This document shows, piece after piece, positions 174 to 57,658 of a stretch of DNA of 64,000 nucleotides (position 1 is the stretch's first letter; each line of letters starts with the position of its first letter). The translations under genes were made by a program, and so were the position numbers. The notes beneath the pieces were generated by a model that worked only from the letters and a program-made list of their open reading frames with translations, was not told the origin of the DNA and did not search any database. The DNA is from Eisenbergiella porci (GTDB lineage Bacteria > Bacillota > Clostridia > Lachnospirales > Lachnospiraceae): positions 62,001 through 126,000 of the forward strand of contig NZ_VUMI01000010.1 of the NCBI RefSeq assembly GCF_009696275.1, given 5' to 3'.

Positions 174-185
174 TATGGAAAGGAT

Positions 186-212
186 GTAACTGTGAAATTG
201 CTGCGCAGTTAT
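186..212. repeat. Short imperfect palindrome resembling the end of the structured repeat
   Basis: The segment begins GTAACTGTGA and ends CAGTTA, so it can fold into a small hairpin just ahead of the GH3 ribosome site. It resembles the 3'-terminal hairpins at 57551-57577 and 57620-57645, which share the same first ten bases and the CAGTTA end; the middle bases differ. It could be a diverged solo copy or a chance match. Confidence 0.35.
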
Positions 213-229
213 GAAAGGATAAAGGAAAC

Positions 230-4549: not shown

Positions 4550-5938
4550 ATGGCACAGCTCTGGGGCGGACGTTTTACCAAGGAAACGGACAGGCTGGCA
4601 TATCAGTTCAATGCGTCTATTAATTTTGACAAAAGGTTTTTCGTACAGGATATTGAAGGAAGCATTGCCCATGCGGCGATGCTTAAGGAGCAGGGAATCC
4701 TGACGGAGGAAGAGAAGGAAGCAATCACGGAGGGCCTGACCGGCATCCGCAGGGATGTGGAAGAGGGACGTCTTGTGATTACCGAAGAGTATGAGGATAT
4801 CCACAGCTTTGTGGAAGCGAATCTGATTGACCGGATCGGGGATGCCGGAAAGAAGCTTCACACCGGAAGGAGCCGCAACGATCAGGTGGCTCTGGATATG
4901 AGGCTGTATGTGCGTCAGGAGCTGCTGGAAATCGACGGCCGCCTGAAGGAACTGCTGGAAACGCTGATAACGCTGATGGAAGAGAACCTGGATACCTATA
5001 TGCCAGGCTTCACACATATGCAGAAGGCGCAGCCCACCACGCTGGCACACCATCTGGGAGCTTACTTTGAAATGTTTAAAAGGGACAGGCTTCGGATGAA
5101 GGATATTTATGCGCGCATGAATTACTGCCCTCTGGGAGCCGGCGCTCTGGCGGGTACCACCTATCCGCTGGATCGCTGTATGACGGCTTCCCTGCTGGGG
5201 TTCGCGGGTCCTACGTTAAACAGCATGGATTCCGTTTCCGACAGAGACTATCTGATAGAGTTTTTATCAGCGCTTTCCACGGTGATGATGCACTTAAGCC
5301 GTTTTTCGGAGGAGATAATCACCTGGAATTCCAATGAATATCGATTTGTGGAGATCGACGACGCCTATTCCACCGGCAGCAGCATCATGCCGCAGAAGAA
5401 GAATCCGGACATTGCTGAGCTGACAAGAGGCAAGACCGGACGTGTTTACGGAGCGCTTGTTTCTATTCTGACAACAATGAAGGGAATTCCTCTCGCCTAT
5501 AACAAAGACATGCAGGAAGACAAGGAACTGACCTTTGACGCCATAGATACAGTAAAGAACTGCCTGATCCTTTTTAACGGAATGGTAAAGACCATGCGCT
5601 TTAATAAAGCCGTCATGGAAAAGAGCGCGGTAAACGGCTTCACCAATGCCACGGACGCCGCCGATTATCTTGTGGGAAAAGGCGTGCCCTTCCGGGATGC
5701 CCACGGCATTATCGGCAGGCTGGTGCTGTACTGCATTGAGAAGAATACCAGCATTGACAGCTTAAGCCTGGAGGAACTCAAAAACGTCAGCCCTGTATTT
5801 GAGGAAGATATTTTCGATGCGGTATCACTGAAAACCTGCGTGGAAAAAAGGCTGACACTGGGAGCGCCAGGTATGGAGGCCATGAAGGAAGTCATCCGTG
5901 TTAACAGGGAATACCTGAAGGAAGAATGGCATTCTTAA
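4550..5938 (+). CDS. argH: Argininosuccinate lyase
   Basis: This cytoplasmic enzyme splits argininosuccinate into arginine and fumarate, the last step of arginine synthesis. The 462-residue length is normal. It opens MAQLWGGRF, carries the substrate loop HTGRSRNDQ, and has the fumarase/lyase signature GSSIMPQKKNPD at about residues 276-287, which contains the catalytic serine. I chose ATG 4550 because GGAGG lies directly upstream and the MAQLWGG start is conserved; an in-frame ATG at 4529 would add seven unsupported residues. argG is not adjacent. Confidence 0.97.
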   Translation: MAQLWGGRFTKETDRLAYQFNASINFDKRFFVQDIEGSIAHAAMLKEQGILTEEEKEAITEGLTGIRRDVEEGRLVITEEYEDIHSFVEANLIDRIGDAGKKLHTGRSRNDQVALDMRLYVRQELLEIDGRLKELLETLITLMEENLDTYMPGFTHMQKAQPTTLAHHLGAYFEMFKRDRLRMKDIYARMNYCPLGAGALAGTTYPLDRCMTASLLGFAGPTLNSMDSVSDRDYLIEFLSALSTVMMHLSRFSEEIITWNSNEYRFVEIDDAYSTGSSIMPQKKNPDIAELTRGKTGRVYGALVSILTTMKGIPLAYNKDMQEDKELTFDAIDTVKNCLILFNGMVKTMRFNKAVMEKSAVNGFTNATDAADYLVGKGVPFRDAHGIIGRLVLYCIEKNTSIDSLSLEELKNVSPVFEEDIFDAVSLKTCVEKRLTLGAPGMEAMKEVIRVNREYLKEEWHS

Positions 5939-19367: not shown

Positions 19368-19417
19368 TTTCATGGCGGATAAGAAAAAAACGGAGCTTCA
19401 GCTTTCGAAAAAGCAGG

Positions 19418-19554
19418 GTAACAGTTCAGGCAGGTTTGCGCATTCACTGCGCAAACCGTGCGAAAACGTAGTGGCAGCAGGCATCCGCCCCTCGCCGAAG
19501 GCGACTTATCATGGGCAGATGCAGTAACAGTTCGGCCGAAGGCTGAACTGTTAC
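19418..19554. repeat. Structured palindromic repeat, copy 1 (137 bp)
   Basis: The element is bounded by GTAACAGTTCAG at the left and its exact complement CTGAACTGTTAC at the right. Inside are hairpin A (GGTTTGCGC, loop, GCGCAAACC at 19433-19457), hairpin B with apex CGCC-GAA-GGCG (19493-19503), and a 3'-terminal palindrome (19524-19554). The same order, with compensatory base changes, is found at 57448-57577. It lies between dus and the promoter at 19583. It may be a structured RNA element or a small non-autonomous mobile element. Confidence 0.85.
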
Positions 19555-19582
19555 AAAGCAGGCAAAAGAAATGAAAAATGAC

Positions 19583-57394: not shown

Positions 57395-57414
57395 GAAACA
57401 GAACATTTTTCTGT

Positions 57415-57443
57415 TTGCATGGAAAAAATACCTAGTGTATAAT
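57415..57443 (+). promoter_or_regulatory. Promoter of the rluB-ligA-metA operon
   Basis: TTGCAT, a 17-base spacer and a perfect TATAAT. Transcription would start at about 57449-57451, that is at the first bases of the structured repeat, so the whole repeat becomes the 5' end of the mRNA. Confidence 0.8.
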
Positions 57444-57447
57444 AAAC

Positions 57448-57577
57448 GTAACTGTTCAGCAGGTCAGCGCATTTACTGCGTTGACCGTAAGAAAGTGATT
57501 CAAGAGTGCTAAAATCCATCGCCAAAGGCGATTTAGGATGGATTTTAGCAGTAACTGTGAGGGTACTGAACAGTTAC
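57448..57577. repeat. Structured palindromic repeat, copy 2 (130 bp)
   Basis: Bounded by GTAACTGTTCAG and its complement CTGAACAGTTAC. Hairpin A is GGTCAGCGC-loop-GCGTTGACC (57462-57486). Hairpin B is a 13-bp stem (57508-57520 with 57537-57549) with apex CGCC-AAA-GGCG. A 3'-terminal hairpin starts at 57551. Compared with the copy at 19418, paired positions changed together at the terminal repeat and twice in hairpin A, while the loop (ATTTACT versus ATTCACT) and the apex are kept. Confidence 0.88.
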
Positions 57578-57619
57578 TAATAAACAATATGCGCTTTGGG
57601 AAAGAATACGGAATGAGGA

Positions 57620-57645
57620 GTAACTGTGAGGGCACTGAACAGTTA
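57620..57645. repeat. Solo 3'-terminal hairpin of the structured repeat
   Basis: GTAACTGTGAGGGCACTGAA followed by CAGTTA repeats 57551-57576 with one internal difference. It lies just upstream of the rluB ribosome site (ATGAGGATAAT) and could affect translation. Confidence 0.8.
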
Positions 57646-57658
57646 AAATGAGGATAAT

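Follow-up and report, generated by a model that had tools for sequence, protein, structure and literature searches.

The structured repeat of about 130 bp that occurs twice in the window, the 64,000-nucleotide stretch of Eisenbergiella porci DNA analyzed here, belongs to a real MITE family. This family has an ordinary likely mechanism and an unusually conserved internal fold, and it is undescribed in the open-licence literature that we searched. We consider it very likely that the MITE is moved in trans by an IS66-family DDE transposase (ISBst12 group), leaving 8-bp duplications. In our model, the transposase of this single-ORF group would act on GTAACNGTTCAG or GTTACNGTTCAC ends and would insert the MITE into short intergenic stretches, duplicating 8 bp of the target as it does so.

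A previous reading, made from the sequence alone, had described two copies with four parts in the same order and with paired bases that change together. The positions, the four parts, and the covarying pairs were all as claimed (Table 1). The element is 130 to 137 bp long, too short to encode a transposase, and is laid out as complementary 12-bp ends, hairpin A, a linker, hairpin B (apex CGCC-RAA-GGCG), and a 3' hairpin C. Among 38 copies from this genome, the 12-bp ends pair in 93% of cells. The loop of hairpin A is CATTTACTG or CATTCACTG in the two window copies. The linker after it is GT(A/G)AGAA, often beginning GTAAGAA, with GTGCGAA in copy B. In hairpin C, the right end pairs with an internal GTAACNGT, which precludes end-to-end pairing at the same time; both arrangements score well on the alignment. 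As a single strand, the element folds far better than shuffled sequences, with z values of −7.8 and −6.1 for the two copies and 0 of 200 shuffles equal to the native fold in each case.

Table 1. Positions in the window of the two full-length copies, their parts, the solo hairpins, and the promoter next to copy A
Feature	Position	Strand	Remarks
Host sigma-70-type promoter upstream of copy A	57414..57443	+	−10 region also in two congeners without the element
Copy A, full-length MITE, subfamily A	57448..57577	+	Covariance-model match of 140.6 bits; target-site duplication; empty site in two congeners
Left target-site duplication TAATAAAC of copy A	57440..57447	.	Same as 57578-57585; overlaps end of −10 box
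Right target-site duplication TAATAAAC of copy A	57578..57585	.	
Copy A left terminal inverted repeat GTAACTGTTCAG	57448..57459	+	Pairs with 57566-57577
Copy A hairpin A, loop CATTTACTG common across genera	57462..57486	+	
Copy A hairpin B, apex CGCC-AAA-GGCG	57507..57550	+	
Copy A hairpin C, internal GTAACTGT paired with right terminal repeat	57551..57577	+	Alternative to end-to-end pairing
Copy B, full-length MITE, subfamily B	19418..19554	+	Duplication AAAGCAGG at 19410-19417 and 19555-19562
Copy B hairpin A, loop CATTCACTG	19433..19457	+	
Copy B hairpin B	19481..19522	+	
Copy B hairpin C, 31 bp, 14 pairs	19524..19554	+	
Solo hairpin C, 27 bp	57620..57646	+	Flanks AATGAGGA at 57612-57619 and 57647-57654; duplicates ribosome-binding region; absent in two congeners
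Solo hairpin C, 27 bp	186..212	+	Flanks GAAAGGAT at 178-185 and 213-220

What the sequence-only reading had overlooked was target-site duplications. Both full copies and both solo hairpins lie between perfect 8-bp direct repeats, which is the signature of transposition. These repeats show that the solo hairpin reported at 57620 is real, as is the one at 186 that had been put forward with a “perhaps.” With the boundaries fixed by the model, as opposed to being picked by the best flank match, a duplication of at least 7/8 bases flanked 43 of 94 fetched copies (29 of the 43 were perfect) and 0 of 940 control placements, none of which rose above 6/8. The duplication is 8 bases long, given that the next base outward and inward agreed in 4/29 and 1/29 of the perfect copies, respectively. 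We read the 51 of 94 copies with fewer than 7/8 identical flanking bases as older or rearranged.

A covariance-model search of this genome (6.10 Mb in 149 contigs), one of the checks suggested by the sequence-only reading, returned at least 104 matches. The model was built from 38 copies and used at a threshold of E ≤ 0.001; 104 is a lower bound because the best 150 of 2191 candidates were scored. We fetched 94 of the 104, leaving out the 10 weakest. BLAST scored 40 of 147 candidates with copy A as the query and 40 of 73 with copy B, and the motif GTAACNGTTCAG occurs 121 times in this genome compared to 3 times for the reversed control. Three subfamilies of 27, 25, and 12 members hold 64 of the 94 copies, the 12-member one having GTTACTGTTCAC ends, and the rest are single or in small groups. 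At two loci (L260, C128:97221-97487, and L261, C63:25489-25760), MITEs of different subfamilies adjoin as pairs in opposite orientation, which suggests insertion into or beside one another.

We then have the site of copy A itself, which lies between a gene for Cu/Zn superoxide dismutase upstream and a gene for a pseudouridine synthase of the RsuA/RluB/RluF group downstream. The downstream genes had been named rluB-ligA-metA. The names ligA and metA are right, but “rluB” is only approximate because the best-scoring model was RluF and the score fell below that model's cut-off. The search for empty sites in relatives succeeded: the superoxide dismutase-pseudouridine synthase interval of congeners G001 and G012 keeps GTGTATAATA and contains neither copy A nor the 57620 solo. 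Since these two congeners keep the promoter without copy A or the solo, the promoter is older than the insertion. Just as had been reported, 4 bases separate its −10 hexamer TATAAT, whose last base is 57443, from the repeat. With copy A lying just downstream of this older promoter, the rluF-like/ligA/metA mRNA probably begins with it. The claimed use of the repeat as an mRNA 5' end would then be a by-product of where the element landed. For copy B, the element is absent from the site in G012, but the region has diverged and contains another GTAACAGTTCAG stretch, so there is no clean empty site. Taken together, the short length, terminal inverted repeats, lack of coding capacity, fixed-length duplication, many dispersed copies, and empty site (copy A and one solo) are those of a MITE, and the target-site duplications, the empty site, and the approximately 100 copies bear out the “palindromic mobile element” that the sequence-only reading had offered as one of two options.

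The family extends well beyond this genome. A covariance-model search of Lachnospiraceae, likewise suggested beforehand, gave matches in 42 of 250 sampled family genomes, including that of E. porci, and in 41 of 249 genera. In a class-wide sample, 4 of 291 genomes had a match (again counting E. porci), all four within Lachnospiraceae; stricter filters applied to both the family and class samples, with weak matches lost. An exact-pattern scan of named genomes found at least 109 stretches. Among the 80 matches listed were Lachnospiraceae-type names, e.g., Blautia parvula, Eisenbergiella, Dorea, Fusicatenibacter, Roseburia, and [Clostridium] symbiosum, together with some broader labels, e.g., Clostridium sp. 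and uncultured Eubacteriales. Plasmids had no match to the element, and viral contigs had 0 matches for one exact pattern. Three short human-gut records labeled “Bacteriophage sp.” (MT837311.1, MT836459.1, and MT839789.1) contain a copy at 81 to 84% identity; these may be phage insertions or mislabeled bacterial fragments. Judged by titles and the starts of abstracts, the open-licence literature on IS66 or Lachnospiraceae and MITEs held no account of such an element.

The ends of the element point to its candidate mobilizer. Locus L303, in congener G012, encodes a 507-amino-acid IS66-family protein (PF03050, E = 1.7e-17; NCBIfam IS66 model, E = 1.1e-37, below cut-off). It has the ends GCAACAGTTCAG and GTAACAGTTCAG, also written GCAACAGTTCAGACGG and GTAACAGTTCAGACAG, and is flanked by repeats of (C)TAATTGGA that are 8 or 9 bp long. 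The element at L308 is 2358 bp, with the ends GTTACTGTTCAC and GTTACTGTTCAG, a perfect 8-bp duplication, and a 558-amino-acid protein (PF03050, E = 1.6e-25). The ends of both L303 and L308 match the MITE ends over the first 11 to 12 bases with small differences, and an IS66 copy at a contig end of this genome carries GTAACTGTTTAG. We surveyed the ends of 33 IS66-type loci, mostly fragments, and only L308 combined two ends with a perfect repeat. The flanks of the two such ends of the L304/L309 element agree at 2/8 bases, as do those of the two ends near the L313 gene; the left flank of L311 is off the contig; and a single such motif, as a putative end, is present in each of L317, L318, L319, L320, and L324. 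In L319, L320, and L324, the motif forms a local hairpin like hairpin C, and hairpin C resembles the palindromic ends beside some IS66-type genes. Within L303 (3297-5296), an IS66-type element is directly followed by a miniature element of 105 bp, at 5192-5296, that has related ends. Since TAATTGGA is found before, between, and after the two, the later arrival inserted next to the earlier one at a shared site.

The comparison with known members of the ISBst12 group goes the same way. According to the accessible part of PMC12898284, ISDge4 from Deinococcus geothermalis, which belongs to this group and was seen to transpose, is bounded by GTGACTACTCAGCA and GTAACTGCTCAGCA, with a repeat of 8 bp. 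The duplication length is thus that of the MITE, and the MITE end GTAACTGTTCAGCA shares 13 of its 14 bases with GTAACTGCTCAGCA. Duplications of 8 bp for IS66 are also stated in the accessible part of PMC11946415. Lachnospiraceae elements with such ends are known here as well (L303 and L308). Unlike the MITE, members of the group are autonomous; L303 and L308 measure about 1.9 to 2.4 kb and each have a single transposase gene. They also differ in hairpin A, whose loop was not found with good arms in five such IS66-type loci; the search gave three loop matches with at most 4/8 arm pairs. Canonical GTAAGCG-type IS66 elements were considered as the partner and rejected because the ends at L181, L298, and L299 (GTAAGCG or GTAAACG), which also have 8-bp repeats, differ after GTAA.

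We observed the ends, the duplications, an empty site, and elements with matching ends, and from these we infer the identity of the transposase and its action in trans. All 7 PF03050 matches in this genome (two inspected by sequence) are partial, interrupted, or at contig ends, so that none of them provides an intact partner; an autonomous partner with the exact ends was not found there. PF03050 is present in 13 of 41 relatives. Drafts of congeners G004, G006, and G009 (81 to 92% complete) had no PF03050 match, yet they gave 35, 34, and 23 BLAST matches, respectively, to copy B plus its flanks. That these MITE-rich congeners show no IS66 gene slightly lowered our confidence in the explanation as a whole. 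The MITE and an L303-type protein occur together in 8 genomes compared to 4.7 expected, when two lists assumed to cover the same 250 genomes are compared.

Solo hairpins of 27 to 31 bp can most simply be accounted for as deletion footprints, left when a full copy loses the stretch between its two direct GTAACNGT motifs. Since full copies carry these direct repeats at the two fused points, one deletion would be enough. It is rather doubtful that the solo hairpins are transposing units themselves, with the internal GTAAC motif as the left end; synapsis of ends 27 bp apart would be unlikely, although the 57620 site is empty in two congeners and perfect 8-bp duplications surround some short hairpins of this kind. 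The fetched loci contained 154 short inverted GTAACNGTTC-type pairs, whose flank identity was bimodal: 11 had 0 mismatches (one of them a 58-bp element), 3 had 1 mismatch, and 8 had 2 mismatches. A bigger group at 5 to 8 mismatches seems to consist mostly of C hairpins that belong to full copies. In own-genome loci, where a one-base shift was allowed and the two solos of the window are outside the count, 4 of 56 short inverted pairs had 8/8 flanks.

Both solos in the window (178-220 and 57612-57654 with their flanks) are located just upstream of a start codon. The duplicated target has Shine-Dalgarno-like letters, and such a site is therefore regenerated after the insertion. Shorter variants with perfect 8-bp flanking repeats were seen at L095, L109, L130, L180 (69 bp), and L123:3119-3176 (58 bp), the last of which keeps hairpin A and is missing B and C. 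Other short palindromes (L104:4041, L141:6323, and L174:1082), some with GTATCTGTTC-type ends, have perfect or near-perfect 8-bp flanking repeats and perhaps represent a further end type.

The sequence-only reading had argued for selection on structure, and the cross-genus covariation upholds this. In A1, an alignment of 38 full-length own-genome copies, 94.3% of pair cells were standard and 19 of 34 pairs had changed on both sides, with 0 of 500 shuffles reaching either value. In A3, the cross-genus alignment, 92.0% of cells were paired and both sides had changed in 27 of 34 pairs, which none of 500 shuffles reached; all 47 rows were counted, including a palindromic copy matched on its reverse strand and a copy truncated by a contig end. 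A2 and A3, which were fitted to the model, are tilted toward its structure; A1 was aligned by MAFFT, free of that, and agrees with A3 on pairing. For hairpin A, 220 distinct sequences were narrowed to the 195 that have the loop frame and then to 67 representatives. The loop is near-fixed across genera (30 of 33 representatives with the loop frame; 15 with CATTTACTG and 10 with CACTTGCTG), and the stems vary among the 33, e.g., CACCAAAA/TTTTGGTG versus GGTCTGCG/CGCAGACC. We also considered a pairing of the hairpin A loop with the linker (TTTAC with GTAAG), in which one position seemed to covary. This was dropped because the neighboring position was unpaired in 40 of 98 representatives, drawn from 191 sequences.

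Where this structure is kept was examined by clustering rows of 115 to 160 bases (97/120 in A2 and 46/47 in A3) into clusters of at least 3 (31/38 rows in A1 and 68/97 in A2). Cluster consensuses were Watson-Crick at 68/68 pair positions in A1 (2 clusters) and 225/233 in A2 (7 clusters), and differences between consensuses were Watson-Crick on both sides in 9/9 and 100/126 cases. For the changed pairs of single copies, the corresponding counts were 16/81 and 33/73. The same length limits defined the rows behind the 67 hairpin A representatives, the loop-linker pairing, and the helix counts given below. Because the consensuses keep pairing while single copies often lose pairs, it is probably at the level of the spreading lineages, and not of the individual host site, that the structure is maintained. 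Pairing kept in this way favors a role in mobilization or in the cost of insertion, and the internal hairpins would most likely serve mobilization or a low cost at the point of insertion.

The other option in the sequence-only reading, a structured RNA, fared less well. In this account, a riboregulator, mRNA-stabilizing leader, or small RNA gene was spread by transposition and is selected for its RNA function at host loci, which would agree with the strong covariation and the conserved loop and linker. Paired sites also change less than unpaired ones in the own-genome subfamilies (approximately 5.9% versus 8.3%, by arithmetic from subfamily counts). However, G-T and A-C mismatches were equal in these same three large subfamilies (at least 5 members each; 64 of 94 copies), where the changed pairs of single copies comprised 80 G-T, 77 A-C, 81 other, and 45 compensated. 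By clusters, the G-T to A-C counts were 26 versus 20 in this genome and 18 versus 6 in other genomes, and the latter excess led us to raise our estimate for the RNA account slightly. Internal helices gave 28:19 in A1, 31:14 in A2, and 15:13 in A3 (74:46 in sum, from rows that are not independent), and the terminal helix gave 10:17, 40:14, and 15:17. This strand evidence is mixed, and a single-stranded form (RNA or DNA) in some lineages is possible. Orientation was counted for 92 own-genome copies with enough flank, using simple ORF-based gene calls. With co-directional neighbors, 46 of 63 elements were co-oriented and 17 ran against them (P = 0.0003), but other genomes gave 37 versus 29 (P = 0.39), and we set the bias aside because it was not repeated. 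By medians, co-directional elements are nearer to the 3' end of the upstream gene than to the next start. Rfam had no match at the gathering score in the whole window, and with a permissive threshold nothing rose above cut-off in the 401 bases around each copy, the best being RT-9 at 19.7 bits (E = 0.93; cut-off, 46.1). All told, we regard the RNA account as improbable.

Slightly less probable again is that the linked changes are a mutational by-product. Template switching is known for quasi-palindromes, and in elements as highly palindromic as these it could perfect the arms of the inverted repeats without selection on structure. It should, however, hit resident copies, yet the changed pairs there were non-Watson-Crick in 65/81 cases in this genome (26 of them G-T) and in 40/73 elsewhere (18 G-T). 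The upkeep of pairing along lineages likewise speaks against arm correction of this kind, which also leaves unexplained why conserved loop letters stand beside changing stems. Short palindromes in high copy number at intergenic locations would also suit a REP/BIME-type palindrome moved as single-stranded DNA by a Y1 transposase (RAYT, IS200/IS605), but REPs, which Y1 transposases move, are not known to make target duplications, and this reading is contradicted by the 8-bp duplications present here and opposed by the matching IS66-type ends, leaving it next to no probability.

Returning to an ISBst12-group transposase acting in trans, we tentatively propose that hairpins A and B may serve as a structural passport. 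The ISBst12-group machinery, or a host factor that it uses, would read the element as a folded DNA strand or as a transcript, and compensatory change would have preserved the fold in more than 25 genera although the element encodes no gene. Hairpin C, at 27 to 31 bp, could then be a minimal end module that persists or even moves alone.

Similar elements are known from other hosts. The bcr1 repeats of the Bacillus cereus group are mobile repeats of about 155 bp with a conserved secondary structure, although their ends and duplication differ from those of the MITE. The BOX, RUP, and SPRITE repeats of Streptococcus pneumoniae are, like the MITE, short interspersed repeats with extensive predicted secondary structure that can be cotranscribed with their neighbors, as described in the accessible part of PMC3049150; the host is different, and the likeness is one of description. 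REP/BIME palindromes, at 20 to 40 bp in the accessible part of PMC3733652, are similar in size to the solo hairpins.

Thus, an orphan structured repeat is linked to a little-studied group of transposases, and a high-copy passenger transposon is found across many genera of a gut bacterial family. It provides a case of structure that is kept in the spreading lineage and often lost in single copies. It also calls for caution, since a “conserved structured RNA leader” in one of these genomes may be an inserted transposon.
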